Below are positions 1,422 to 21,024 of a DNA stretch of 21,024 bases, piece by piece. Both the position numbers and the translations under genes were made by a program. The stretch's first letter is position 1. Each line of letters begins with the position of its first letter. The notes beneath the pieces were generated by a model. It made no database searches, had not been told where the DNA came from, and saw only the letters and a program-made list of their open reading frames with translations. Source of the stretch: a virus; IMG/VR virus record IMGVR_UViG_3300023281_001092, positions 1-21,024 of that record; one strand, written 5' to 3'.

Positions 1422-2588
1422 ATGTCTGATCAGTGGTCATGGTGGCGCGAAGCCCTAGATGGAACATTCGGTGATATCACTGAGACGGCTCCACATTCTG
1501 GATTTTACCGGACCCGCGATGGTCATCCTGTTGCGTTCTGGCGCGATGCCGACGCTCAGTACGGTAAGATCGATGGCTCTGCGATTGATACTGATCGTAT
1601 GGGCGGCATATGGATCAGCGTCGCCAAGCGTCCAGTAACACGACCAGAGTACAACTATCGCCGTGAGCACGGTAGGTGGGAAGCCGATCTTGATCCGGTC
1701 AAGCCGTTGGCGGCAGAATTAGCGGAACCGTTGGGGCATGATCCGGTCGTTTCTGAGGCGCAACCTGTTGAAATTGCGGAACAAAAATTCAACAGCGAAC
1801 CGGCAAAAATAGCGGCAACGGGTGATGTTTCACGTGAAACAATCGGCCCGGGCCACAACTCCGGCGATCTCGATACCTTCCGCACCATGCGTGAGGCGTT
1901 GCTTGGCGACGTGGCTGAATCAAAAGCCTACTATGCTCGCAATCCGATCAAGACTAAGCCGGAAGCTGACAAGGCTGAGAACTGGCGCAAGCGCATCAAT
2001 GATGCTGCAAAGGCCGCTGACGAACGCCGCAAAGTCGATAAGGCCCCACATCAAGACGCCGCCGATGCCGTCGATGCGTTGTACTTCCCAATTGTGCGCG
2101 AAGCACAAGCCCAAGCCAAGGCGATAGCTGCGCTTGCAGACGGATGGTTGCGCTTAGAGCAAGAAAGGCTGCGCAAAGAAGCCGAAGCCACTGCACGGGC
2201 TAAATTCGAACGGGAACAAGCCATCGCCAAGGCAGAGCGAGCCCGACTTGAATCCGAGCGAGCGGAAAAGATCAAAACAGACCCGGTGGCAGCTTACACC
2301 GAAGCGCCTCCGGTCCTGCCTGACATCCCCGTGGCACCGATGCCAGTCGTGGCAGCACCTAAAATCATGATTGGCACGACTGGCACGCGTCGCAGTGTGC
2401 GGGACGTGCCAGCTACGGCAACGATTGTGGACCTTGCAGCGGTTGCAAAGTTCTATGCGGATCAGCAGCATCCATCGCTTGTCGAGTTGCTGCAAAAACT
2501 TGTTGACAAAGCAGCCAAGGCACGAACTACCGTCGTAGGGTGTCGTATGTCATGGGAAGAAAAGCAAACAGTTGAGGCCGCCGAATGA
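1422..2588 (+). CDS. Coiled-coil phage protein of the GHNSG type, upstream of RecT
   Basis: This 388-residue protein is preceded by GAGGGGAAAG, a good ribosome binding site, at the stop of the previous gene. Residues 1-90 form a small W-rich domain (WSWW near the start). Residues about 95-140 are a linker. From about residue 141 an I-G-P-G-H-N-S-G motif opens the part widely seen in alphaproteobacterial phages and prophages. That part has helices, then a long Lys/Glu/Ala/Arg coiled coil (about 225-290), a Pro/Val-rich segment, and a C-terminal domain beginning G-T-T-G-T-R-R-S-V-R. Proteins of this layout are often found next to single-strand annealing genes; their biochemical role is not known to me. 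The linker contains an exact parS palindrome at 1826-1841. The end overlaps the next gene as ATGA. Confidence 0.8.
   Translation: MSDQWSWWREALDGTFGDITETAPHSGFYRTRDGHPVAFWRDADAQYGKIDGSAIDTDRMGGIWISVAKRPVTRPEYNYRREHGRWEADLDPVKPLAAELAEPLGHDPVVSEAQPVEIAEQKFNSEPAKIAATGDVSRETIGPGHNSGDLDTFRTMREALLGDVAESKAYYARNPIKTKPEADKAENWRKRINDAAKAADERRKVDKAPHQDAADAVDALYFPIVREAQAQAKAIAALADGWLRLEQERLRKEAEATARAKFEREQAIAKAERARLESERAEKIKTDPVAAYTEAPPVLPDIPVAPMPVVAAPKIMIGTTGTRRSVRDVPATATIVDLAAVAKFYADQQHPSLVELLQKLVDKAAKARTTVVGCRMSWEEKQTVEAAE
1826..1841. promoter_or_regulatory. parS: Exact match to the chromosomal parS site
   Basis: The sequence TGTTTCACGTGAAACA is a perfect 16-bp palindrome, identical to the well-known bacterial chromosomal parS consensus bound by ParB. 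It lies inside the coiled-coil gene, where it encodes part of D135 and V-S-R-E-T in an interdomain linker. A random 16-mer match in 21 kb is very unlikely. What binds it here, host ParB or a phage product, is inference. Confidence 0.75.
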
Positions 2589-2806
2589 TGCTCATGACAG
2601 CCAATCCGTGCGAGGATGTTCACGAATTCGCCAAGCGCATGATTGTCGAGGCGTACATAACGAACGGTGTCGTTCTCGGCGAGTTCAATCAGCACACATT
2701 CGAGGTCCGTCCAGGATCGATGATCGAGGATGTGATCCGACCCTATGATGAGTGGGCGCAGCGTTCGTATTTTGGCGAAATCAAGTTCCAGCGAGCAACA
2801 CCATGA
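2585..2806 (+). CDS. Hypothetical phage protein, 73 aa
   Basis: The start is an ATGATG at the stop of the coiled-coil gene (overlap ATGA) and the end overlaps the RecT-like start (ATGA). It is therefore locked into the same coupled translation chain. The protein is acidic and soluble, with a helical first third (E-D-V-H-E-F-A-K-R-M-I-V-E-A) and a likely beta-rich remainder containing F-E-V-R-P-G-S and Y-F-G-E-I-K-F. No Cys, metal or nucleotide motif is seen. Coupling to the annealing protein hints at a recombination accessory role, but that is inference from position only. Confidence 0.65.
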   Translation: MMLMTANPCEDVHEFAKRMIVEAYITNGVVLGEFNQHTFEVRPGSMIEDVIRPYDEWAQRSYFGEIKFQRATP

Positions 2807-3723
2807 CCAGCACCAGCACCAGCATCGCTCAACTCAAGTCAGGCGGCACACTTGGTCCGATCTATCCTCAATCCGTCGAGGAAGTCTATCGGTTCGCCAA
2901 GATGGCGCTGACATCCGGTATGCTGAAGCCGCAAAAGATAGGCTACGGGCAGGGCGCTACGATAGAGGATGCAGACGCAACGCTTGCGCGGGGAACAATG
3001 ATTGTTCTCCAGGGCATGGAGATCGGCGTTCCTCCCATGCAAGCAATTCAATTGCTCGCGATGATCAATGGTCGGATCACAGCTCATTCTGAGGCCGTCC
3101 CCGGCATTCTTCTGGCCAAGGGCTTCAAGATCAAAACAACGTGGTCCGGCACAGAAATGCAGGACGACTGGACATGCACCGTCGATCTGACGCGCCCGGA
3201 CGGCTCAGTTCACACCGCATCGTTCTCGGTCGCGCGCGCCAAGCGAGCTGGCCTATGGGACGAATGCCCCACCAAGGAAAGCTACGGCAAGGTCAAGCAG
3301 AACGATAGCGCATGGTTTCGTTATCCAGATCGGATGCTGAAAGCGCGTGCTCTTGGGTTTGCGGGTAAGGATGGAGGATCAGACGCACTGAGAGGTATCC
3401 AGGTACGCGAGGAAGCCGATGACATGGCTCACGTCGAAGATATGCGCGATATCACGCCATCCGCCACAAAGCCACAGCCATCCAACATCGAACCGCCAGA
3501 CCCGGACGCGCCAGTCGAACCAACAAAAACCGTCACAGTCGAACCCGTTTATGATGAACCAATCGTTGATCCGGAAGGTTTTCTTGCCAAGCTCGAAGAA
3601 AGCCGGTCACTTGTCGACAGCATCGAGGAACTACAAGAGTTGATTGCAGCAAACATCGACGCAATCAATCAGCTTCCGCCCGGACTTAAAGCAAGAGCCA
3701 TGAAGTTACTGGAGGTTGATTAG
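2803..3723 (+). CDS. recT: RecT-like single-strand annealing recombinase
   Basis: I chose ATG 2803, which overlaps the previous stop as ATGA; an upstream in-frame extension to 2752 lies inside the previous gene. The 306-residue protein has the RecT-family core. Residues about 25-90 carry the pattern A-R-G-T-M-I-V-L-Q-G-M-E-I-G-V-P-P-M-Q-A followed by I-N-G-R-I-T-A-H-S-E-A. A strand-rich part contains W-T-C-T-V-D-L-T-R, and a segment about 160-215 includes the S-A-W-F-R-Y-P-D-R-M-L-K-A-R-A-L-G-F motif that corresponds to the conserved basic helix of the family. The C-terminal 90 residues are Pro/Glu rich and acidic, typical of the variable tail. RecT-type proteins anneal complementary single strands in phage recombination and replication. 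No partner exonuclease is recognisable in this window. Confidence 0.8.
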   Translation: MTSTSTSIAQLKSGGTLGPIYPQSVEEVYRFAKMALTSGMLKPQKIGYGQGATIEDADATLARGTMIVLQGMEIGVPPMQAIQLLAMINGRITAHSEAVPGILLAKGFKIKTTWSGTEMQDDWTCTVDLTRPDGSVHTASFSVARAKRAGLWDECPTKESYGKVKQNDSAWFRYPDRMLKARALGFAGKDGGSDALRGIQVREEADDMAHVEDMRDITPSATKPQPSNIEPPDPDAPVEPTKTVTVEPVYDEPIVDPEGFLAKLEESRSLVDSIEELQELIAANIDAINQLPPGLKARAMKLLEVD

Positions 3724-3825
3724 CCATGCGTCCACTGTTTACGTTGTTTGAGTTGAGCTTTGTCCGGCACCATCAGATAGAGCCAAACAGAAACTTAGCG
3801 TCTGCGTTACAGTTGGGAGTTGAGC

Positions 3826-4740
3826 ATGTTGAACTTATCAGGCGAGAAATCGCGCAAACTCAAGTCAGGGGTAAAGCCAATGTTGTCAGTCGTGGAAGTC
3901 GTCAAGAAATCACCAGTCAAAGCGTCGTCGAAGCCGCGCAAAAGTGAAAAAACGCGGCAGGAGATACTTGTTGTGACGCCAGACATTGCGGAAGCGTGGC
4001 TGTCGAAAAATAAGAACAACCGTAAGATTTCGCGGTACACAGTCGACACACTGGCGCGCGCTATGGAGAACGACAATTGGGAGTTCAACGGCGAGGCCAT
4101 CCAGTTTGACGACAGCGGAAACCTGATCAACGGCCAACATCGGCTAACGGCATGTGTTCAATCTGGCTGCAATTTCGAAACGCTGGTGGTTTACGGCGTA
4201 AGCTTCAAAGCCGTGACCACAATCGACACTGGAAGACCGCGCCGCGCGACCGACGTGTTGACGATGAACGGCCTTGTAAACAGTGCAAAGCTGGCATCGG
4301 CAGCACGGCTTCTGCTCATGATCAAGAATGGTGTAATTACGGAACCGCTTAAGTTTACGCATCGTGAAATCCTGGAGGCAGCCAAGGCGAGGCCGCAACT
4401 GCAATATTCGGTATCAAAAACCATGGGTGTCGTCGGTCTCTCGCCAACGCTTGCGGCGTTCATCCATTACGCTGGCGGTCACGTCGTGGGCCTCAATGAA
4501 GTTGCTGATAGCTTCATTGACGTATTCAAGACGGGGTCGCCATCGTATCCAGGGTGCCCAGCGCATGCATTGCGGGAGCGGCTGATTCGGAGCGGTGATA
4601 CGCGCAATAGTGTTAAACGCAAGGATATGTTGAAAATTTCATTCCACGCATGGAACTTGTTCGCCCAAGGCAAGCCTGTCGAAAATCTGAGAACGCCGAA
4701 TGAAGCCGTGATCGACGGCCTTGACATTAAGAAACTGTAG
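3826..4740 (+). CDS. ParB/sulfiredoxin-fold (ParB-like nuclease domain) phage protein
   Basis: ATG 3826 is favoured because GGGAG lies 6 nt upstream; a TTG at 3820 is the alternative. The first 45 residues are Lys/Ser rich and probably flexible. Residues about 50-135 carry the diagnostic pattern: I-S-R-Y-T-V-D-T-L-A-R-A-M, then W-E-F-N-G-E-A-I-Q-F, then I-N-G-Q-H-R-L-T-A-C, the (N/D)GQHRL signature of ParB/Srx-fold proteins. An I-D-T-G-R-P-R-R-A motif follows near residue 137. The C-terminal half is helical, without the helix-turn-helix of true partition ParB and without the G-E-R-R-x-R-A CTPase motif. Such proteins occur in many phages; reported activities of the fold include nuclease and nucleotide hydrolysis, but function here is unknown. 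It is notable that the same genome carries parS sites. Confidence 0.7.
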   Translation: MLNLSGEKSRKLKSGVKPMLSVVEVVKKSPVKASSKPRKSEKTRQEILVVTPDIAEAWLSKNKNNRKISRYTVDTLARAMENDNWEFNGEAIQFDDSGNLINGQHRLTACVQSGCNFETLVVYGVSFKAVTTIDTGRPRRATDVLTMNGLVNSAKLASAARLLLMIKNGVITEPLKFTHREILEAAKARPQLQYSVSKTMGVVGLSPTLAAFIHYAGGHVVGLNEVADSFIDVFKTGSPSYPGCPAHALRERLIRSGDTRNSVKRKDMLKISFHAWNLFAQGKPVENLRTPNEAVIDGLDIKKL

Positions 4741-7654: not shown

Positions 7655-7969
7655 ATGTTTTTTGGGTTGGCAATTTCACCTGCAACTCGGTTCGGGTTGC
7701 AGGTCACAGCTATGCTTTTTGTGGCGGGTTATCTCGTGTCATGGGGTGACAGGCACGGGTTCAACGCCCACCGTATCGCTGCCATGCAGCGCGAGATCGA
7801 TGCCACCAATGACAGCCTGAAAACCTTTGCAGAACATGACTTTGCCACGGCTGCCACGGCTGACAGCTTGCGCGAGGAAGGCTACCAAGCTGCCGTGGCA
7901 CTGCTGAATGGCAGCGGAAAATGCCTTGTAACACCTGTCATGGCACAAGCCTTTGCGAGGTTGCCATGA
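7655..7969 (+). CDS. Inner-membrane spanin-like protein (Rz-like)
   Basis: The ATG at 7655 has GGGGGA about 7 nt upstream. The 104-residue protein has one N-terminal membrane segment (about residues 13-30, containing T-A-M-L-F-V-A-G-Y-L-V-S-W). An alpha-helical region follows (about 35-85, A-A-M-Q-R-E-I-D-A-T-N-D-S-L), which would lie in the periplasm, and it ends A-Q-A-F-A-R-L-P. This is the layout of an i-spanin. It sits between the endolysin and an overlapping lipoprotein gene, exactly the Rz/Rz1 arrangement, and shares an ATGA with that gene. I-spanins link to the outer-membrane partner to fuse the two membranes in the last lysis step. Sequence similarity among spanins is low, so the call rests on topology and context. 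Confidence 0.65.
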   Translation: MFFGLAISPATRFGLQVTAMLFVAGYLVSWGDRHGFNAHRIAAMQREIDATNDSLKTFAEHDFATAATADSLREEGYQAAVALLNGSGKCLVTPVMAQAFARLP

Positions 7970-8304
7970 ACCAGAACATCATTTGTACATTCTGCTGTCA
8001 TCGGGGCCATACCGCAGGCAATTGCCCGCGTCGCATTGCCCAGTGGCACGTGTTCGCGACGCTCTGTGCCATGGCAACGATTGCCGTGGTTGGCATGACC
8101 GGATGCTCAACCCTAACGGTTCCACCGTCTAAGTTGCTGGCACCACCGGCACGCCTCATGGTGCCAGTCAGCAAGGCGGAAGCCATCAAGTCAGGCGACG
8201 ATTTGGTTATTAAGTATCTACAACTTCGCAAACAGTTTTCACGTGAAACATCCCGTTTAAATAGTCTTCAAGGATATGTTCGCGCATTGGGTGTATCCAA
8301 ATGA
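7966..8304 (+). CDS. Outer-membrane spanin-like lipoprotein with N-terminal CCHC zinc knuckle
   Basis: The start at 7966 is an ATGA overlap with the i-spanin gene. Residues 7-20 form a perfect C-x2-C-x4-H-x4-C zinc knuckle (C7, C10, H15, C20). R22-R23 and a hydrophobic segment (about 29-43) follow, ending in M-T-G-C, a lipobox with Cys47 as lipidation site. The mature part (about 65 residues) begins S-T-L-T-V-P-P-S, has a Pro-rich stretch typical of Rz1-like proteins, then a helical segment. The fusion of a zinc knuckle ahead of the signal sequence is unusual. A downstream start that would omit the knuckle (for example Met36) leaves no basic residues in the signal peptide, so the long form is preferred. 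A parS-like site lies inside at 8235-8250. Confidence 0.65.
   Translation: MNQNIICTFCCHRGHTAGNCPRRIAQWHVFATLCAMATIAVVGMTGCSTLTVPPSKLLAPPARLMVPVSKAEAIKSGDDLVIKYLQLRKQFSRETSRLNSLQGYVRALGVSK
8235..8250. promoter_or_regulatory. parS: Second parS-like site (14 of 16 matches)
   Basis: The sequence GTTTTCACGTGAAACA differs from the parS consensus only at the two outermost left bases. The inner 12-bp palindrome TTTCACGTGAAA is intact. It lies in the spanin lipoprotein gene, coding F91-S-R-E-T95, the same reading phase (S-R-E-T) as the exact site at 1826. Binding is not demonstrated. Confidence 0.5.
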
Positions 8305-9316: not shown

Positions 9317-9349
9317 TTTGTGCGCGTACATACTCAGGAGATCAGCACC

Positions 9350-9463
9350 ATGGTTATGGCTGATAAGGGAAACTGGTGCAGCCATCATGCGAACGGGTGT
9401 CCGCCTCCACCGGATCAACCTGATTTCTGCATGATGCTTTTCAAGGAAAGTTGTACCACCTAG
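9350..9463 (+). CDS. Very small Cys-rich protein, 37 aa
   Basis: AGGAG at 9336-9340 stands 9 nt before ATG 9350, and the frame closes with TAG at 9461-9463. The 37-residue product contains four cysteines and two histidines: N-W-C-S-H-H, G-C-P-P-P-P, D-F-C-M-M and E-S-C-T-T. The even Cys spacing suggests a single zinc site or two disulfides. It stands alone between a terminator (9258-9316) and a second hairpin (9486-9516). It therefore forms its own small transcription segment or a leader for the next gene. No family is recognised; the strong ribosome binding site is the main argument that it is real. Confidence 0.5.
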   Translation: MVMADKGNWCSHHANGCPPPPDQPDFCMMLFKESCTT

Positions 9464-9485
9464 CTCCAATGTTGATAGCACACGC

Positions 9486-9516
9486 TGCCGGCGGGATTAC
9501 AACATGCCCGCCGGCA
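9486..9516. repeat. 10-bp perfect hairpin upstream of the GNAT gene
   Basis: TGCCGGCGGG (9486-9495) pairs with CCCGCCGGCA (9507-9516) around an 11-nt loop. Only ATTCT follows, so it is a weak terminator candidate at best. It ends 22 bp before the ATG of the GNAT gene and may shield or control the leader. Confidence 0.6.
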
Positions 9517-9538
9517 ATTCTACCAAAAGGCTTAGAAC

Positions 9539-10303
9539 ATGGCCGACGCAACCCAGTCAAGTCAGGGCATCACTTATCCGACCGATATGCTGCGGCAGCA
9601 ATCCTTTGCGCCATCCGATCGCTATAGCGGAGATGTGCGAGACCTGCCACCGTGGCACGAAAGACCAGTATCCGCAACGGGAGACGCCGTTCGTTCGTTG
9701 GGTCGGTCCATGGGTTATTATAATTTCGATGAACGAACAAACGCAGCATTGATGCTTGCCAGCTTAATGTCTGGAGCGTCTAGTCCGGCTTGGCTTGGTG
9801 TCAAATCGGTTGGCCAAGCGGCAAGAATGACGCCGTATCTAAAGCCTGATGCAAAAATGGAAAACGGAGTTCAGTTTTTCATTCCGCAAGCAGGCAGGAT
9901 AACAGCCGCCGTTGATCATGATAACGGCCTCGTTGGGGTTGGTGGAGCATATGTTCAAGATGCCTTGCAAGGCCAAGGCTACGGCAAAGCACTCTACAAG
10001 GCCGCTGTCGACCATGCTCACGGCCTTGGTTATCCGCTTACCAGCGATATGTCAGTATCGAGCAAGGCAGCTCGAATGTATGAAGGAATGGCACGACGTG
10101 GCTACGATGTTGAAAAATTACCAGGGAGCACCAAGTGGCACGCGTCCAAAGATAGATGGGGTTGGGATGCGCCTGATGGGCATCAAGGCCAAAGGGGCGT
10201 GTTTACAGTCAATATGCCGCCGCGTGCATCCGGCGGTCCCGTCAATGATCCATTTCTTCAAGCCCTACATCTCGCTATGCTGTACGCCAACCACCGGCAG
10301 TAA
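9539..10303 (+). CDS. GNAT-family acetyltransferase-domain phage protein
   Basis: AAGG lies 8 nt before ATG 9539. Residues 1-95 are a Ser/Gly/Pro-rich leader of no known fold (with P-P-W-H-E-R-P and a small hydrophobic part near 70-90). Residues about 105-200 carry a GNAT core: a strand pair (I-T-A-A-V-D-H-D and L-V-G-V-G-G-A-Y-V), then the acetyl-CoA-binding loop Q-G-Q-G-Y-G-K-A-L-Y near 144-153. Next come a helix, then T-S-D-M-S-V-S-S-K-A-A-R-M-Y-E and R-R-G-Y-D-V, matching motifs A and B. The C-terminus has R-A-S-G-G-P-V and a helix F-L-Q-A-L-H-L-A-M-L-Y-A. This end resembles the portal C-terminus here. GNAT proteins transfer acetyl groups to small molecules or proteins; the substrate is unknown. 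Placement beside ART and VRR-NUC genes suggests an effector role. Confidence 0.7.
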   Translation: MADATQSSQGITYPTDMLRQQSFAPSDRYSGDVRDLPPWHERPVSATGDAVRSLGRSMGYYNFDERTNAALMLASLMSGASSPAWLGVKSVGQAARMTPYLKPDAKMENGVQFFIPQAGRITAAVDHDNGLVGVGGAYVQDALQGQGYGKALYKAAVDHAHGLGYPLTSDMSVSSKAARMYEGMARRGYDVEKLPGSTKWHASKDRWGWDAPDGHQGQRGVFTVNMPPRASGGPVNDPFLQALHLAMLYANHRQ

Positions 10304-10308
10304 TCACA

Positions 10309-10707
10309 ATGACAAAGAAACCAACCAAACCAGAGCCATCCGAGCTTCAAATCCACATCGCCGTTGTTCAGCACCTCAAGTTCCGTGCCCGCAAAGGTGT
10401 GCTGTGGTTCCACGCTGCAAACGGCGAGCTAAGAACCAAGCGCGACGCTGCCAAGCTCAAAGCCATGGGCGTTACTCCTGGTATTCCTGATATCGTCATG
10501 ATTGCAGATGGAAAGACTTACGGCCTTGAACTAAAAACGAAAAAAGGTCGCCTTTCCCCAGAACAGCAATCCATGCTAGAGACATTCCAGAATGTCGGAG
10601 CATTGTCAGCAGTCGCCTATGGGCTTGACGCCGCAATCTCTATTCTTGATGCGTGGGGTATTCTACAAGACAGCAAGTCGCCGAAGATGTGCGAATGCTT
10701 TAACTGA
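10309..10707 (+). CDS. VRR-NUC domain nuclease
   Basis: The ATG at 10309 is 5 nt after the previous stop. The 132-residue protein shows the VRR-NUC pattern of the PD-(D/E)XK nuclease superfamily. It has an N-terminal helix with E-L-Q-I-H-I-A-V-V-Q-H-L, then W-F-H-A-A-N-G-E and K-A-M-G-V-T-P-G-I-P-D-I-V-M-I, with Asp of PD as metal ligand. G-L-E-L-K-T-K-K-G-R-L-S follows, with the E-x-K catalytic pair, then P-E-Q-Q-S-M-L. Stand-alone phage VRR-NUC proteins are small DNA nucleases, with suggested roles in junction cleavage or host-DNA degradation. It has the usual length of the family (100-140 residues). Confidence 0.85.
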   Translation: MTKKPTKPEPSELQIHIAVVQHLKFRARKGVLWFHAANGELRTKRDAAKLKAMGVTPGIPDIVMIADGKTYGLELKTKKGRLSPEQQSMLETFQNVGALSAVAYGLDAAISILDAWGILQDSKSPKMCECFN

Positions 10708-10720
10708 CGAAGGTAGCGCC

Positions 10721-10963
10721 ATGACACCGTATGAGAATGCCATAGCGCTGGCTCGATACTATGCAGACGGTGGGGCTGTGTCCGATGACGGCCTAGAGCC
10801 GTGGTACTCCAAGCTGCGGCGCGAACGCTGGACTTGGTGTGCTAGACTATTACACGGCTGGCATTCCAAGCACGATGGCAGGTCTCGTGAACGGGGCAAT
10901 TCCAGGTCAGCCACTCGGCGGCATAAGCGAAGCCAAGCGAGCCGCGTCGGATGCTCATTCTGA
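10721..10963 (+). CDS. Probable 5' part of a frameshifted ART-PolyVal gene
   Basis: ATG 10721 has AAGG upstream and begins M-T-P-Y-E-N-A-I-A-L-A-R-Y-Y-A-D-G-G, a plausible N-terminus that resembles the start of the large polyvalent protein (F-A-N-A-L-A-T-A-R-R-Y). After W-Y-S-K-L the frame turns into Arg/Ser/His-rich sequence typical of out-of-frame reading. Skipping one base near 10817 instead yields K-L-G-A-N-A-G-L-G-V-L-D-Y-Y-T-A-G, which runs straight into the ART-like protein that follows. The most economical reading is one gene of about 472 codons split by a single-base insertion. A sequencing error or a programmed +1 shift are the alternatives. Confidence 0.55.
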   Translation: MTPYENAIALARYYADGGAVSDDGLEPWYSKLRRERWTWCARLLHGWHSKHDGRSRERGNSRSATRRHKRSQASRVGCSF

Positions 10964-12137
10964 TGCAGCCAAGATGTTCGGTCGTGATGTTCTCGGCGGT
11001 GCTGAAATTCCAATCATGGGCATGACAGCAATGCCTGCATTCCGACGTATGTCAGCGCCATCGCGGGCCGCAGAAGGACTAGAACGCGGCACGGCGGCGG
11101 CATCTGCGACTGAAGTTCAGCCAGGCATCCGCGCCTATCACGGCAGCCCGCATGATTTCGATCGGTTCAGCATGGACAGAGTGGGGTCAGGTGAAGGTGC
11201 GCAGGCGTATGGGCATGGGCTGTATTTTGCAGAAAAAGAGGGCGTTGCGAGAAGTTATCGCGATGCCCTGGCGGATAGAGGATTGCCAATTGGGAATGGG
11301 CCAATACCATACCGCAACGGTCGTCCAATACAAGGAGAGCCCGATAGCGTTAACCAGGCAATAGCATTGATCGAAAAACACGGCGGCGATACGCAAAAGG
11401 CTCTTGACGAAGTCAACATAGAGGCCATGGCAAGGCAGAAAGCTGTAATTGAAGCAAGAGACGCTGAGGAATCATTTTTTCCATGGAAAAGGCGTCCTTT
11501 TGATATGAAGTTGATTGAAGAAAGGAATAAAATTCACAATATCGCTCAAGCCCTGGAAAACTCTATTAGAGATAAAACTAAATTGGAATTAAGAGAACGC
11601 CCGAAGGGGCACATGTACGAAGTCAACATCAACGCCCACCATGATCATTTCCTCGACTGGGACAAGCCGGTTGGGCAGCAGCATTGGCTTGTAGATGACA
11701 TGGCGGGACAGCATTTGCCGCCGACAAAGTATGAATACGAAGTTGGTTCTCACTATCTCACGCCAAAGCGGTTCAAAACAGAAGCCGACGCCAAAAATTA
11801 CGCTTCCGGTCATCGCGGGGCCACGGTAACGCCGCGAGAACTTGGACCAGATATGTTCACCGGGAAAGACATCTGGGAGCATATCAATAAGGGAAAACCG
11901 GAAGCTGGCGCAAAGGCCCTTCGCGAAGCCGGCATCCCCGGCATTAAATACCTAGACCAAGGCTCCCGCACCGCTGGTGAAGGTTCGCGCAACTACGTCG
12001 TGTTCGACGACAACCTAATCTCGATCCTTCGCAAGTACGGCCTGCTTGGCATGGCTGGTGGCGCTGCATCCATGTACGGTTCAAGTCCATCAGACGCAAA
12101 TCCAGCAAAATACGAATTTCGCGCGCCGGAGCAATGA
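10839..12137 (+). CDS. ADP-ribosyltransferase-like polyvalent protein (ART-PolyVal type), main part
   Basis: The frame opens at a GTG (10839) without a convincing ribosome binding site, consistent with being the 3' part of the gene begun at 10721. Residues 1-85 are a small-residue-rich leader. Around 98-145 is the ART signature: R-A-Y-H-G-S-P-H-D-F, G-S-G-E-G-A-Q-A-Y-G-H-G-L-Y-F-A-E and V-A-R-S-Y-R. The middle is helical and charged. The C-terminal part contains L-R-E-A-G-I-P-G-I-K-Y-L-D-Q-G-S-R and G-S-R-N-Y-V-V-F-D-D-N-L-I, as in phage ART-PolyVal domains. Those domains are predicted to transfer ADP-ribose from NAD to host targets and are described in polyvalent proteins thought to enter the cell with phage DNA. 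Activity of this protein depends on whether the frameshift is real. Confidence 0.7.
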   Translation: MLDYYTAGIPSTMAGLVNGAIPGQPLGGISEAKRAASDAHSDAAKMFGRDVLGGAEIPIMGMTAMPAFRRMSAPSRAAEGLERGTAAASATEVQPGIRAYHGSPHDFDRFSMDRVGSGEGAQAYGHGLYFAEKEGVARSYRDALADRGLPIGNGPIPYRNGRPIQGEPDSVNQAIALIEKHGGDTQKALDEVNIEAMARQKAVIEARDAEESFFPWKRRPFDMKLIEERNKIHNIAQALENSIRDKTKLELRERPKGHMYEVNINAHHDHFLDWDKPVGQQHWLVDDMAGQHLPPTKYEYEVGSHYLTPKRFKTEADAKNYASGHRGATVTPRELGPDMFTGKDIWEHINKGKPEAGAKALREAGIPGIKYLDQGSRTAGEGSRNYVVFDDNLISILRKYGLLGMAGGAASMYGSSPSDANPAKYEFRAPEQ

Positions 12138-12190
12138 ACGAAACATAACCCATCAACAAAAGGGCGGACATACATTCCGCAGTTATTCCA

Positions 12191-12757
12191 ATGCCAGCCA
12201 AGGCAAAGACTAAGAAGAAATCCAAGGATAAAAAGACAGTCAAAGCACAAGCAACAGAGAAGCGACAAGTTGGTCGCCCAAGTGCTTACAAGCCTGAGTA
12301 TGCCGAGCAAGCAAAAAAGCTCATTCTGCTTGGCGTAACTGATGATGAAATGGCCGGTTTCTTTGGTGTTATTAAACAGACCATCTACAACTGGCGGAAA
12401 GAATTTCCAGAATTTTTAGACCCCGTTGCTTATAAATCGATTTCTGACGCCGAAGTTGCCGCCAGCGCGCACAAACTTGCTACTGGTTACGACTATGAAG
12501 TTGAACGAGTAATTGGCAAGGGCGATAACGCCAAGGTTGTCAAGATCAAGGCGCATGTGCCCGCTAATCCGGTTGCCCAACAGCATTGGCTTCGCAACCG
12601 TCGTCGCAAGGAATGGGGCGATACCAAGCAGGTTGAGGTCGGCGGTCCTGGCGAGTTCGACCAGATGGACGTTGACCAGCTTCGTGACTTTATCCTTGCG
12701 GAACAGGAAGCTATCGGTCTGTATGACGCCGAGCCGGGCAGTGATGCGCTTAATTAA
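12191..12757 (+). CDS. terS: Terminase small subunit
   Basis: The 188-residue protein has a Lys-rich N-terminal tail (residues 1-25). The DNA-binding region follows: V-G-R-P-S-A-Y-K-P-E-Y-A-E-Q-A-K-K-L, then a helix-turn-helix L-G-V-T-D-D-E-M-A-G-F-F-G-V and T-I-Y-N-W-R-K-E-F-P-E-F. Next come A-T-G-Y-D-Y-E-V-E and P-V-A-Q-Q-H-W-L-R-N-R-R-R-K-E-W-G-D, the standard end of many phage small terminases. It recognises phage DNA for packaging and regulates the large subunit, whose gene follows. There is no clear Shine-Dalgarno upstream of the ATG, only an AT-rich leader. Confidence 0.85.
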   Translation: MPAKAKTKKKSKDKKTVKAQATEKRQVGRPSAYKPEYAEQAKKLILLGVTDDEMAGFFGVIKQTIYNWRKEFPEFLDPVAYKSISDAEVAASAHKLATGYDYEVERVIGKGDNAKVVKIKAHVPANPVAQQHWLRNRRRKEWGDTKQVEVGGPGEFDQMDVDQLRDFILAEQEAIGLYDAEPGSDALN

Positions 12758-12878
12758 ACTACAATTGCAGCGTTTTTAGCAAATATAATTCGGTAGCATA
12801 TGAAATACGTTGGGTAATCTCCCGGCTAAACACTTTCAAAACCCCAAAACAACCACATGGGAACGAAATAATTTTCTA

Positions 12879-14564
12879 ATGTCAGACCTTCGCCCCCGTC
12901 TCATCCAACTCGCAAAGGCTAAAAAAGCACTGCGGATGAAGCTGGAGAAGGAACATCTTGAGGGGAGTTTGATCGAGTTCTATCGGGCAGCATGGCATGT
13001 CATTGATCCAGCTGCCTATCAGGATAACTGGCACCTAGATGCGATTGCAGAACATCTGGAGGCTGTGGCGCGCGGTCAAATTCGAAAACTATGCGTGAAC
13101 TTACCGCCTAGGCATTCCAAGACGATCCTATGCAGCGTGGCGTTCAATGCCTGGATTTGGTGCCAGAAGCCGGACGAGCGCTATCCTTTGCTTGGTCCGG
13201 GCTCGCGGTTCATGTGCTTGTCGTATGGCGACGACTTGGCGATGGACAATTCCGTTCTCACGCGGCGTTTGATCGAAAGCCCGTGGTATCAAGAGCGGTG
13301 GGGCGATCGTGTCGCCATCCACAAGGATCAGGACGCTAAAGGCAAGTTTGATACCACATCTGGCGGCACTCGAATATCTGGATCGTTCAGAGGAACGGTG
13401 ACGGGTCGCGGCGCTGGCATTCGCGTCTATGACGATCCGCACAAGATGGATGAGGTCGAAAGCCAAACTCAACGCGAACGGGTCTTGACGCTCTACAATA
13501 CGACACTCAAATCTCGCGTGAATGACCCGCGAACGTCTGCTGAAGTGTTGGTGGCACAGCGTGGTCATCAGGATGATTTGTCCAGCGTGTTTTTGAACGA
13601 CCCGGAAACCGTGCACCTCAACTTGCCAGCCGAGTACGATACAACTCGGCATTGCGTGACATCGCTTGGATGGGAAGACCCGCGTACCTACGATGGTGAG
13701 TTGCTATGGGCTGATCGATGGGGACCAAAAGAGCTAGCACAGTATAAGCTCAACCCATACGAATGGGCGGCACAGTGGCAACAGCAGCCGACACCACGCG
13801 GTGGCGGATTGATCCATGAAGAATGGTTCCAGCCGCATGAGGTCCGTAGGGGCGACGGCGGAATGCTACGGTTTATCCCAGAGGTCAAGCCGCTGTATGT
13901 GCTGGCGTCGCTCGATACGGCGTTCAGCGAGAAAGAAACGGCCGACTACAGCGCCCTGACGATTTGGGTTGTTCACGAAGACCCAATCACGAAGCACCGC
14001 AAGATTTTGCTTGCCGACGCTTGGCAGAAGCGGCTGCCTGAATTGAGCGGCGAGACGGTCGAACGCGAAGACGGCGAAAGTGAAATTTCATGGAAGAAAC
14101 GCCAGCAAGCCAAGTGGGGACTTGTCGAGTGGGTTGGCTATTCCTGTAAGCGCCGTCGCGTTAATCAGTTGATCATCGAGAACAAAAATCGTGCACCCGA
14201 TGTTGTGCGCGCCATCAAACGACTGTTCGCGGATCGAGATTTTGGCGTCCAAGCCATCAACATCCACGGCGACAAGCGTTCGCGCGCCAGTGCAATAGTT
14301 GATATTTTTACGGACGGCATGGTTCATGCGCCAGCCGTGATTACCAAGAATGACGACGTTCAATTTCTTGATTGGGCGTCCAACGCCATGCAAGCAATTT
14401 GCTCCTACCCGCACGGGTCACATGATGACTTGCTTGATGCAATGACATTGGGATTGAAGTATCTTCGAGACAACGGTTGGGCCATCCGCAAAGACGAACA
14501 CAAGGCCGATGAGCTTGCAAGATCGCAGCATCAGAGCCAACGAGATGCCTTGTATCCCGTCTGA
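12879..14564 (+). CDS. terL: Terminase large subunit
   Basis: I chose ATG 12879 (M-S-D-L-R-P-R-L); the frame is open to a TTG at 12810 but that part has no protein character. The 561-residue protein has the ATPase and nuclease modules. The ATPase has a Walker A-like loop L-P-P-R-H-S-K-T (residues 75-82), D-D-P-H-K with D185-D186 as Walker B, and the A-Q-R-G-H-Q-D-D-L coupling motif. The RNase H-like nuclease has D346 in S-L-D-T-A-F-S, E434 in I-I-E-N-K-N and H-D-D-L-L-D-A-M at 515-522. It translocates and cuts concatemeric DNA into the prohead through the portal encoded downstream. Like terS, it lacks an evident ribosome binding site. Confidence 0.9.
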   Translation: MSDLRPRLIQLAKAKKALRMKLEKEHLEGSLIEFYRAAWHVIDPAAYQDNWHLDAIAEHLEAVARGQIRKLCVNLPPRHSKTILCSVAFNAWIWCQKPDERYPLLGPGSRFMCLSYGDDLAMDNSVLTRRLIESPWYQERWGDRVAIHKDQDAKGKFDTTSGGTRISGSFRGTVTGRGAGIRVYDDPHKMDEVESQTQRERVLTLYNTTLKSRVNDPRTSAEVLVAQRGHQDDLSSVFLNDPETVHLNLPAEYDTTRHCVTSLGWEDPRTYDGELLWADRWGPKELAQYKLNPYEWAAQWQQQPTPRGGGLIHEEWFQPHEVRRGDGGMLRFIPEVKPLYVLASLDTAFSEKETADYSALTIWVVHEDPITKHRKILLADAWQKRLPELSGETVEREDGESEISWKKRQQAKWGLVEWVGYSCKRRRVNQLIIENKNRAPDVVRAIKRLFADRDFGVQAINIHGDKRSRASAIVDIFTDGMVHAPAVITKNDDVQFLDWASNAMQAICSYPHGSHDDLLDAMTLGLKYLRDNGWAIRKDEHKADELARSQHQSQRDALYPV

Positions 14565-14793
14565 GCATATCAATTCATCGCCATTCGAACGGGACCATCC
14601 AATGGTGCACCAAGAGATTGAAGACCTCGCTAGATATCTATGCAAGCGGGACGGGCAAGACCCTGATGCTGTTGTGTTCTTGCGGCTTCCGCACGGCAAG
14701 AAAAAGCAGGAAGTTCTATGGCGCTTGTACGTTTCTGTTGCGCGCGGGGTGCACTTGGTGCATGCTGAACCTGCTAGCTATTCGGTGAATTGA
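14545..14793 (+). CDS. Small phage protein between terL and the polyvalent gene, 82 aa
   Basis: Several starts are possible: ATG 14509 (56-bp overlap with terL), ATG 14545 (20-bp overlap) or ATG 14602, which has GGGA seven nt upstream and would give 63 residues. The shared part contains H-Q-E-I-E-D-L-A-R-Y-L-C-K-R-D-G-Q-D-P-D-A-V-V and a helical C-terminus with L-W-R-L-Y-V-S-V-A-R. The ARxLCxxDGxDPD pattern recurs in small phage proteins of unknown role, often near structural genes. No membrane or metal-binding feature is seen. Confidence 0.55.
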   Translation: MPCIPSEHINSSPFERDHPMVHQEIEDLARYLCKRDGQDPDAVVFLRLPHGKKKQEVLWRLYVSVARGVHLVHAEPASYSVN

Positions 14794-14795
14794 CG

Positions 14796-17700
14796 ATGGC
14801 CAACAATGATGATTTTGACGTATTCGCCAACGCTCTTGCAACGGCGCGTCGATACAATGATCTATCGCAGCCGGAAGGCCCTTCGACGGTTGATCTGAAT
14901 GCGGGACTTGGCACGGATCGACCTGCGACATTGAGCGGCGTCGGATCACGTCTAGGCTCTATGCGATCGACGCCAGAACAGCAAGACGCGTTTCATCAGC
15001 GGTTCATGGAAGCCAGGGACAAGCCGACGTTGGGCGGAAAGTTGCTTGGCGCGATCAATGGCATCAATGACACTGAACTTGGCAAGTCGACGATGACAGG
15101 TCGAGCACTTGGCATGTTTGGCAGCGATGACAGCGGAGATCGGGCGCGCACGCCATGGGCCGATGCGGTCATGTCGACGGCACACATGCCACATCGATTT
15201 GGCGATGCAGTGTATGACGCAGGCGAGCTGATTTACGACGCCGTGACAAAGCCGTTTGCTCAACGTGGCGACAGGACAGAAGAAGGCTCAATCGATACAA
15301 ACGAAATGATGTATCCAGAGTTGGGACGGCGTGGGATCGGCTTTGCTGGCACTCTTGCACTTGTTGCTGGCGCACTGGCACGACCGGCGCAAGGTGTTGG
15401 TATCTTTGCAGGACGGACAGCTAAGACAGCAGATCATGCGGCGCTCGCCAAAGCAGAAGCTATGGCTGCGGACAATGTTCCGCGTGGGCGCATATGGGGC
15501 GAGACTGGACAGTTTCGAGCCATGGACGGCGAATGGCTGCACGAGATCGATGATAGCAAGATGAGGCTGCACAACGTTCCAACGAAGTTCGAAGAACCGA
15601 AAACAGCGCACGCCGAGCATGGCCGTCCAATTCTTGATCTTGTCGATCACTCCAAATTTTTCGATGCGTATCCAGACGAAAGCGGGTTGGCAGCCCAGCG
15701 CATCAACGGGACGAGCCGCACGGGTTGGAATGGAATGTTCGTCAAGGACAGGGGTATTGCATACAACGCAGCCATGCCGGATGGCGGTAGGTCGACGGTG
15801 TTGCATGAATTAGATCATGTTGCCCAAAACAGAGACAAAAGGTGGACGGGTCCAGGATACGATAGAACAAATCCAGATGGGTACGACATATACCATCGAT
15901 CCCATCCGGAAGTCGAAGCCCGTGCCGTCCAAGCCCGTCGCGATCTCACACCAGAACAACGTTCAGCCCGTCCACCATGGGAAGACTACGACGTTCCTGA
16001 AAGCCAACAGATTGTAAGGTTCAACTCCAACGGTGACAAAGCAACTCTTCCAGGAACAGTCCTAAGCCAAGCGTCTAAAGACCTTCCTATGAACCATCCC
16101 ATGGATACGCGCACGCCCAAATTTGTTGAGCGTGGATACCATGGAACAGATGAATACGGCATCTTGAATGTTCCCATGAATGAGCGTGTGGAAAACGGTA
16201 TTGGCCCATGGGGAACAAGTAACGCAAAGGTTGCAGAGACCTATGCTAACATTGGTAATTCCCCCGCCATTGTTCCTGTTGAGTATAGGTTTGACAATCC
16301 GCGCGTGATTGAAGGCCATGGGAGGCGGTTTGGCGTCAGAACTGACCGGCACGGCATTAACTCAGACATTGAGGCCGCGATGGCGCGTGATGCTGGGCAT
16401 GATGGGCTGGTGATCCGCAACATGCGTGATGCGGCAGGTTCCGACCTCACCATGGCTGATACATACGCGCCGCTAAAGCCTGGAACCGCTTACAACTCAT
16501 TGACCGGCGATCTGCTGTACTCCAACGGTGACAAAGCTACCATTCCAGGAACACTTATCTCTCAATCCAGTCGTGATCCAATAGAGAGAGGATTGGCAGT
16601 GGCGCGTAACGTCGACAGTCTCGGATACTATTCACAAGCTCTTGAAGCAGCAAAAGGCTTGAAGCAAGCCAAAGGCACGCCAGAGCAGATGCTTGCCATG
16701 CTCAAGAAATCAGGTGTGAAGGATGCGGAGATCGAAGCGACGGAGCTCCGCAAGATGTTGGCCGATAATCCGTCGATCACACGAGACGATATCGTCAAGC
16801 ACCTGGAGGGGAATAGGGTTAGGCTGAGTGAAAAGGAGTACGCTGCGCCCGACATGGAAGCGCTGAACAACGCGTCGAGGATGTATCACGGCGAACAGTA
16901 TTCCGAACTAGGCCACGATCAGCAACGCATGATCAGAGACGAGTTGGGGGCGTCAAGCAGCGCACCAAAGTGGTCCGCCCATTCTCTCGATCCATCCAAC
17001 CCGACATATAGAGAAACAGTACTGCATCTGCCGGAGAATGTAGACAAATCAGGGATTGAAGCCGCACTCAAGAAATTCGACGCAAGCATGTTGGATAAAT
17101 ACGGACAGGATTGGCGTTTCAAAATGTCAATTCAAGATGGTGAACTCCGTACAGATCTAATGAAAGGACATCTTGGTTTAGACTTTCGTTCCGGTCATTT
17201 CCCCGAGCCCAACATAGTAGGTCACATGATGACTTCTACGACTAAGCACGAGGGCAAGCCTGTCTTTACAGTCGATCAAATACAGAGCGATTGGGGACAG
17301 AAACTTAGAGACGGTGGCGTTAGGGATGAGGCGAAGATTGCGGAGTTGAAGGCCGCACAAGATGCGGCGCAACGGCGTGCTAACGAAATAGCTGACAAGT
17401 TCATGGCGTCACTGCCAGACGGCGACAGATCAAAGAACTATCGCGGGGATGCTAACGATCGATTGTCTCAAATGCGGGCTCTTGGAGACCCTACCGGCAT
17501 AGAGTGGGCGGACAACTACCAAAAGGCCAGAATGCTTGCCGCAGAGTTGAAAACGGCCGAGAACTCAGCATCCGGTCATCCTCTCGTCAACACCACAGAC
17601 CAATGGACAAACACAACGCTTCGCAGAGCGCTAAGCCAAGCTGTTGAGGCTGATGCACAGTATATTGCTATTCCGAGTGGCGATACGGTACTTGGCTATA

Positions 17701-18158
17701 ATCCTGGCGGCATGGAGGGAATGGAGGCATTTTACGGCCATAAGCCGAACGCAAGAGCGGCAGAATCTTTACGCAGAGAAATCAAGCAGGTCGAAGATGG
17801 CCAACGTACTGATCTTGATGTTTCGTACTTGAAGAAACGGCTTGAGATTGCCGAAAATGGCGTAACCGGCATTGTCCCTAAGAACCTCCGCAATATCCTG
17901 ACCAAGATCGACCCCAGCATCAAGCCTCAACACATCGAAACTCTTGACAGTCCATCAGGCAAGACAGGTCTCGGTAATGGCTTCACGATCTTCCCGTTAA
18001 CTGATAAGGTAAGGGAAGCAGTCAAGGGAGGGCAACCGTTGTTTGCCAATCCGCGTCAGTCCGCATTGCCTGGAACAATGATCAATGATGATGGCGTGAA
18101 CGCAGAAGATGCAATGAACCGTGCGCTTGATATCGCGCGCAGACATTCACAAGAATAG
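14796..18158 (+). CDS. Large polyvalent protein: zincin, ART-like and LPD regions
   Basis: ATG 14796 follows the previous stop by 2 nt; TTG 14790 is an alternative. The 1120-residue protein is modular. It starts with an A-N-A-L-A-T-A-R-R-Y helix and a small-residue-rich region with a short hydrophobic stretch near 175-195. A zincin domain follows, with H-E-L-D-H at 337-341 (metal ligands H337, H341, catalytic E338) and H-P-E-V-E-A-R-A-V downstream as the probable third ligand. Then comes an ART-like domain starting G-Y-H-G-T (H449) and including H-D-G-L-V-I-R-N-M-R-D. The C-terminal half has Y-R-E-T-V-L-H-L-P, F-R-S-G-H-F-P-E-P-N (797-806), Q-I-Q-S-D-W-G-Q-K (828-836) and a W-T-N-T-T-L-R-R-A-L-S region. 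This part is known from phage polyvalent proteins as a large-polyvalent-protein-associated domain. Such proteins are thought to be packaged and delivered with the genome. The C-terminus again ends in A-L-D-I-A-R-R-H. Confidence 0.75.
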   Translation: MANNDDFDVFANALATARRYNDLSQPEGPSTVDLNAGLGTDRPATLSGVGSRLGSMRSTPEQQDAFHQRFMEARDKPTLGGKLLGAINGINDTELGKSTMTGRALGMFGSDDSGDRARTPWADAVMSTAHMPHRFGDAVYDAGELIYDAVTKPFAQRGDRTEEGSIDTNEMMYPELGRRGIGFAGTLALVAGALARPAQGVGIFAGRTAKTADHAALAKAEAMAADNVPRGRIWGETGQFRAMDGEWLHEIDDSKMRLHNVPTKFEEPKTAHAEHGRPILDLVDHSKFFDAYPDESGLAAQRINGTSRTGWNGMFVKDRGIAYNAAMPDGGRSTVLHELDHVAQNRDKRWTGPGYDRTNPDGYDIYHRSHPEVEARAVQARRDLTPEQRSARPPWEDYDVPESQQIVRFNSNGDKATLPGTVLSQASKDLPMNHPMDTRTPKFVERGYHGTDEYGILNVPMNERVENGIGPWGTSNAKVAETYANIGNSPAIVPVEYRFDNPRVIEGHGRRFGVRTDRHGINSDIEAAMARDAGHDGLVIRNMRDAAGSDLTMADTYAPLKPGTAYNSLTGDLLYSNGDKATIPGTLISQSSRDPIERGLAVARNVDSLGYYSQALEAAKGLKQAKGTPEQMLAMLKKSGVKDAEIEATELRKMLADNPSITRDDIVKHLEGNRVRLSEKEYAAPDMEALNNASRMYHGEQYSELGHDQQRMIRDELGASSSAPKWSAHSLDPSNPTYRETVLHLPENVDKSGIEAALKKFDASMLDKYGQDWRFKMSIQDGELRTDLMKGHLGLDFRSGHFPEPNIVGHMMTSTTKHEGKPVFTVDQIQSDWGQKLRDGGVRDEAKIAELKAAQDAAQRRANEIADKFMASLPDGDRSKNYRGDANDRLSQMRALGDPTGIEWADNYQKARMLAAELKTAENSASGHPLVNTTDQWTNTTLRRALSQAVEADAQYIAIPSGDTVLGYNPGGMEGMEAFYGHKPNARAAESLRREIKQVEDGQRTDLDVSYLKKRLEIAENGVTGIVPKNLRNILTKIDPSIKPQHIETLDSPSGKTGLGNGFTIFPLTDKVREAVKGGQPLFANPRQSALPGTMINDDGVNAEDAMNRALDIARRHSQE

Positions 18159-18167
18159 AGATAACCC

Positions 18168-18389
18168 ATGAACCAGAACGAAGCCTTCCCACTCACCACA
18201 AACGATATGCTCGGTATCATCCAGCGCCAGCTTGCAGAGTTGAATGCCTACTGTGGTCAAGCCCCGCATCATGTCGACCGTGACGTGTGCATGAAATACC
18301 TAGAGCGGATTGCATCGTTTGTTGTTCAAATTCCGCCCGCGCATGTTCCGTCAAGCGAGAATGACGACGCGCCTTCGATGAGGAATTAG
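18168..18389 (+). CDS. Hypothetical phage protein, 73 aa
   Basis: The ATG at 18168 comes 9 bp after the polyvalent gene, with AGAGATAA as a weak ribosome binding site. The protein is helical, with M-L-G-I-I-Q-R-Q-L-A-E-L-N-A-Y-C and a second helix around C-M-K-Y-L-E-R-I-A-S-F-V-V, and ends in an acidic, flexible tail. No known domain is seen. Its place directly before the portal, separated by a terminator-like hairpin, suggests co-transcription with the polyvalent gene rather than with the portal. Confidence 0.6.
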   Translation: MNQNEAFPLTTNDMLGIIQRQLAELNAYCGQAPHHVDRDVCMKYLERIASFVVQIPPAHVPSSENDDAPSMRN

Positions 18390-18427
18390 TAGAACACGTT
18401 ACGCCGCATTCATTGTTAAGATTTCTT

Positions 18428-18459
18428 GCCCGCTTCGGTTCATCCGTGGCGGGCTTTTT
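18428..18459 (+). terminator. Intrinsic terminator just upstream of the portal gene
   Basis: GCCCGC (18428-18433) pairs with GCGGGC (18449-18454), with an inner CGG/CCG helix in the loop, followed by TTTTTATT. It lies between the stop at 18389 and the ribosome binding site GAGGA (18463-18467) of the portal gene, so it would attenuate read-through into the head genes. Confidence 0.65.
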
Positions 18460-18476
18460 ATTGAGGAATTTCCATC

Positions 18477-20981: not shown

Positions 20982-20987
20982 TGGTTG

Positions 20988-21024
20988 CCCAAGAGCACGT
21001 TGCGACGGTTAACGTGCTCTTGGG
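20988..21024. terminator. 14-bp perfect hairpin after the portal gene
   Basis: CCCAAGAGCACGTT (20988-21001) pairs perfectly with AACGTGCTCTTGGG (21011-21024) around GCGACGGTT. It begins 6 bp after the portal stop. The window ends with the right arm, so a following T tract cannot be seen. Confidence 0.65.

Follow-up and report, generated by a model that had tools for sequence, protein, structure and literature searches.

A 16-bp sequence at positions 1826–1841 of the phage DNA analysed here probably serves the phage as a docking site for borrowing the chromosome-sorting machinery of its host. The DNA, referred to as the window, is a stretch of 21,024 nt from an IMG/VR virus record, and the sequence at these positions, TGTTTCACGTGAAACA, matched the consensus of the bacterial chromosomal parS at 16 of 16 positions, with no mismatches. 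We regard it as reasonably likely that the sequence is a parasitic parS which loads host ParB, the host partition system being captured for the positioning and inheritance of phage DNA when lysis is delayed.

An exact parS palindrome in an optional linker

The initial annotation had noticed the 16-position match to parS, called its chance occurrence in 21 kb very improbable and placed it in a linker where the protein is under low constraint. All three statements were borne out by the analysis. The palindrome was found as described, and the number of exact copies of TGTTTCACGTGAAACA expected in the 21,024-nt window was 3.3e-6 under independent bases and 2.8e-6 to 7.6e-6 under Markov models of orders 1–3 of the window (about 3e-6 to 8e-6 overall). 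The site and the genes around it are as follows.

1422–2588, + strand: site-bearing gene, encoding a 388-aa protein, a distant member of phrog_10477 (labelled exonuclease)
1826–1841, no strand assigned: exact parS palindrome TGTTTCACGTGAAACA, read in frame as D-V-S-R-E-T
2752–3723, + strand: RecT-like ssDNA annealing protein (phrog_561, E=5.6e-17), downstream of the site

The palindrome lay in frame within the open reading frame 1422–2588, where D-V-S-R-E-T was followed by IGPGHNSG. Homologues of the encoded protein, with 25–30% identity, were identified in a Rhizobium phage and a Synechococcus phage, and in both of them a recombinase gene (RecT or Bet) adjoined the homologue too. No close relatives of the gene turned up among phages, in IMG/VR or in GTDB contigs, and RecT used as a synteny bait in IMG/VR revealed no relatives. 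Most of the linker with D-V-S-R-E-T, about 40 residues, was missing from both aligned homologues; the site thus sits in an optional linker. When the codons of gene 1422–2588 were shuffled synonymously, 29 of 20,000 shuffles recreated the site at the same place, and the joint codon probability, given D-V-S-R-E-T and the codon usage of the phage, was about 1e-3.

Phage context of the site

The presence of genes for terminase subunits, an SU10-type portal, an endolysin of the glycosyl hydrolase 108 type and spanin-like proteins identified the window as a fragment of a tailed phage. A 30-kb IMG/VR contig, L123, shared 11,690 bp (positions 9335–21024) with the window, with a single mismatch, and extended the known part of this phage to about 39 kb of a still incomplete genome, in which a single exact parS was present. 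Because the overlap with L123 stops short of the site, the sequence at 1826–1841 rests on a single contig. The best matches of gene 3820–4740 came from Rhizobium phages and several portal relatives of the window phage infect alphaproteobacteria, which is no more than suggestive as regards the host. The protein encoded by 3820–4740 belongs to phrog_5931 (E=9e-59), a family with no assigned function, and had no Pfam match; its NGQHRL string is one that we take to be reminiscent of ParB/sulfiredoxin-like folds. Among other genes of the window, the product of 14790–18158 is a large polyvalent protein in which an LPD23 domain and, weakly, an ADP-ribosyltransferase domain (ART-PolyVal) were matched; the protein of 10839–12137 likewise matched ART-PolyVal weakly, with a score under the curated cut-off.

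The site could also be the phage's own centromere, serving a plasmid-prophage life with ParA and ParB encoded in the missing part of the genome. Complete parABS systems do exist in some temperate phages, such as the RedRock group (PMC7157519), and the incompleteness of the genome leaves room for one here. However, ParB_N was sought without success in the window, in L123 and in three longer relatives (G002, G004, G007), and no integrase domain was detected in the first two. The RedRock parS, moreover, is made up of 8-bp repeats in an array, a design different from that of TGTTTCACGTGAAACA. No member of the ParA or ParB families was present among the scanned ORFs of the incomplete genome either. 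A phage-encoded parABS was rejected on the lack of ParB_N in the known 39 kb or so, and we consider it highly improbable.

The position of the site allows for another role, in which ParB, bound there and spread over the adjoining DNA, acts as a roadblock that slows transcription of the operon ahead of the recombination genes. Gene 1422–2588 is located two genes upstream of the RecT-like gene 2752–3723, all on the + strand, but the sites of other phages lay in varied genes or intergenic places and shared no position relative to recombination genes. This role for the site is very doubtful.

Exact parS sites recur in phages and viral contigs

The exact parS 16-mer was present in 286 of 50,697 GenBank phage records, at 824 places counted on both strands, which corresponds to about 412 sites; in the same records, none of three control palindromes occurred. 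In IMG/VR, exact parS was found in at least 120 contigs falling into at least 71 nucleotide clusters, and two control palindromes were found in 1 and 9 contigs. Judged by the worse control (9 against at least 71 clusters), about one eighth or less of the exact viral sites would be due to chance. The carriers included Listeria P100-like, actinobacterial, lactobacillus, roseobacter and phi29-like phages as well as gokushoviruses and inoviruses. ParB_N was absent from 10 of the 11 phage records tested (10 carriers of exact parS and one of a 15/16 site) and from 48 of the 50 IMG/VR parS contigs tested, many of which are fragments. Among the small genomes, the inoviruses bajarodino virus 69 (L163) and PQ006149.1, 5.8–5.9 kb in size, carried five to six exact parS each, and exact parS was also borne by gokushoviruses and Spiroplasma phage 4.

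In the contigs listed (at least 120), coding sites were read in the V-S-R-E-T frame in 38 cases and in the F-H-V-K frame in 10, and many coding sites fell in proline-, glycine- or charge-rich linker-like stretches, as in the window. In the annotated GenBank carriers most sites lay outside annotated genes, as judged by eye and with relatedness ignored. For IMG/VR, the share of sites without a 100-codon open frame was 44% versus 32%; the ORF test was crude and the difference modest, and this non-coding excess was set aside as evidence. A degenerate DNA search for S-R-E-T-x-G-x-G-H-N gave 0 matches in IMG/VR and 8 in GTDB contigs. One of these eight, in a Rhodobacteraceae MAG (L167), had an exact parS in a stretch taken for host chromosome, and the remaining matches look like chance. 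In the literature searched, outside which most subscription papers fell, neither a broad enrichment of parS in phages nor terminase-side arrays were found, and no priority is claimed.

These counts bear on the simplest explanation of the window site, namely that an unconstrained linker acquired V-S-R-E-T and that parS is an accident of the codons used, with no function at the DNA level. The linker is missing from the homologues, the joint codon probability is of the order given above, many windows had been read for many motifs, and the nearest portal relatives are without the site (see below), all of which is in line with coincidence. Nevertheless, the tiny number of copies expected per window, the low share of chance sites in IMG/VR and the complete lack of the three control palindromes in GenBank phages argue against it, and we find coincidence distinctly unlikely.

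Sites in the wider kin of the window phage

Homologues of window-phage proteins, mostly terminase and portal, were encoded by 45 of the 120 parS contigs listed, a figure that is not an estimate of enrichment. In the largest nucleotide cluster, the parS sites formed 23 groups by their flanking sequence. The sites are thus gained and lost at differing places, which fits a small binding site selected for its presence and not for its position. In the available DNA of the nearest portal relatives (G002 and others), sites within 2 mismatches of parS were absent, so parS is not fixed in the lineage.

Relatives with about 41% identity in the portal, 34% in the terminase and 55% in the capsid, included two contigs with clustered sites. 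In L018 (2657–3444) and L045 (10535–11462), five exact parS each were found within 0.8–0.9 kb, adjoining the terminase gene. The copies in these two contigs, which are without a ParB_N domain, form a centromere-like array. Intergenic 15/16 parS sites near the gene for the terminase small subunit were also identified in two portal relatives, L143 (2880–2895) and MN698241.1 (16412–16427), with the mismatch at a tolerated position in each.

Near-matches point to a ParB-type reader

Among the fetched phage loci, sites with one mismatch were altered at position 1 (6 sites), position 5 (24 sites) or position 8 (1 site), with positions numbered from the outer edge of the palindrome. In total, position 1 or 5 was the altered one in 30 of the 31 sites; since some sites come from related phages, with phi29 relatives among the 24, the counts cannot be treated as independent. 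Caulobacter parS also varies at positions 1 and 5, among others (PMC7022226), and reading by a ParB-type protein would explain the pattern of mismatches. In eight two-mismatch sites from the fetched viral loci, both copies of position 7 were changed together, giving a symmetric parS variant, possibly a related palindrome for another ParB/Noc-type protein.

The window contained only one other match within 3 mismatches of parS, located in a spanin-like gene.

7921–8304, + strand: Rz-like spanin gene holding GTTTTCACGTGAAACA (phrog_1267, E=7e-4)
8235–8250, no strand assigned: GTTTTCACGTGAAACA, 14/16 match to parS, weak candidate only

This sequence reads F-S-R-E-T in frame. One half of it is perfect (GTTTCAC), a half-site to which certain ParBs bind (PMC7022226); the other half is mismatched at positions 1 and 2. 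Because position 2 is altered, which is unique among the near-sites, 8235–8250 was not counted as parS and was rejected as a true second site. In L123, the rest of the known phage, no site within 2 mismatches of parS was detected.

A conserved coding site in the phi29 family

The phi29 family was used as a surrogate for the gene of the window. Phage phi29 (L185) carries four TGTTTCACGTGGAACA sites, each matching parS at 15 of 16 positions, at 10445, 15903, 17243 and 18760, and all nine Salasmaviridae genomes examined had two to four such sites each. The site in gene 15, encoding the endolysin, occupied the same place in nine of nine phages amid variable flanks and was translated as N-V-S-R-(E/G)-T. 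Each of its five invariant residues was encoded by a single codon in the nine phages, compared with 21 of the 146 invariant residues in the rest of the gene, and its only variable base was the tolerated position 5. Such codon use indicates that the gene-15 parS is conserved at the level of DNA in this family. The frozen coding site, the enrichment in phages relative to the control palindromes and the ParB-like tolerance of the near-sites lend indirect but strong support to the proposal, made in the initial annotation, that the window site is kept for a function of its DNA.

Proposed function

On the favoured reading, the 16 bp would act as a functional parS of the chromosomal type in a phage that carries no ParB itself. 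On binding parS, ParB closes into a CTP clamp that slides onto adjacent DNA and engages ParA (PMC12704722). Since the clamp slides away from parS, a parS on a phage genome would coat the phage DNA with host ParB. After entry of the DNA, host ParB would bind the phage parS, load as a CTP-dependent clamp and spread along the phage DNA. The likeliest benefit is that host ParA, and possibly SMC, which ParB also engages, would then treat the ParB-coated phage DNA like DNA of the chromosomal origin, placing it in the cell and passing it on where lysis comes late, e.g., in slow, dormant or carrier-state cells. We infer that ParB binds the site in the host of the window phage and that the phage benefits from it.

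The same site evidence would also suit a decoy, i.e., a site that, once replicated, titrates ParB off the host origin and disturbs segregation, division or ParB-dependent control, with no positioning of the phage by ParB. The parS mimics of SGI1 compete for the ParB of IncC, destabilise the plasmid and stabilise SGI1 (PMC10954446), and multicopy carriers exist among the viruses, with five sites in L018 and L045 and five to six in the inoviruses. However, the single site per genome found in the window and in many carriers would be a weak sponge until late replication, and the phi29 precedent is one of phage genome capture, not of titration. A decoy is viewed as unlikely.

Capture of the host partition system for positioning and inheritance is favoured because of the reported entrapment of the phi29 genome by Spo0J and the parS mimics of SGI1, and it was ranked above ParB titration, coincidence, a transcription block and a phage-encoded system. 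The wider proposition, that a host-type parS without ParB is a widespread convergent trait of phages, placed often in V-S-R-E-T linkers and sometimes in terminase-side arrays in podophages of this kind, seems evenly balanced to us. If it holds, host ParB would mark the genomes of many lytic phages for positioning or inheritance, beyond the case of phi29, and the CTP-driven ParB clamp would often be the partner of phage DNA during infection. Such a role would matter for the persistence of lytic phages in slow or dormant cells, for the location of phage DNA in the cell and for disturbed segregation in the host. The idea is directly testable, as ParB can be traced in model hosts and phi29 is a laboratory system.

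Comparison with known systems

The window site shares its 16 bp with the chromosomal parS of Caulobacter and Hyphomonas, and TGTTTCACGTGAAACA itself is present in Hyphomonas neptunium (PMC7022226). In bacteria these sites are located near oriC, whereas here the site lies within a phage gene. Mycobacteriophages of the RedRock group likewise carry a partition site on the phage genome and form extrachromosomal prophages (PMC7157519), but they encode ParA and ParB, neither of which was seen in the window phage, and their parS is built from an 8-bp motif repeated directly eight times (PMC7157519), in contrast to the single 16-bp palindrome of the window.

SGI1 resembles the window phage as a mobile element without its own ParAB, whose parS mimics are bound by the ParB of another element, to the benefit of SGI1's stability and at the expense of the owner of the protein (PMC10954446). 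The ParB in that case is encoded by a plasmid and has a different site, whereas the site of the window phage is of the bacterial chromosomal type.

In design, the window phage resembles phi29, which has near-perfect chromosomal parS sites and no detectable ParB, with one of the sites in a V-S-R-(E/G)-T linker within a gene. The sites of phi29 number four and occupy conserved places, and a host ParB has been implicated experimentally: Spo0J (ParB) is reported to bring about the trapping of phi29 genomes in spores (Meijer 2005, cited in PMC9437464). The window phage, a member of an unrelated podophage-like lineage, has one full site. The precedent for the use of host ParB by a phage is therefore phi29, and the window phage brings in a different lineage.
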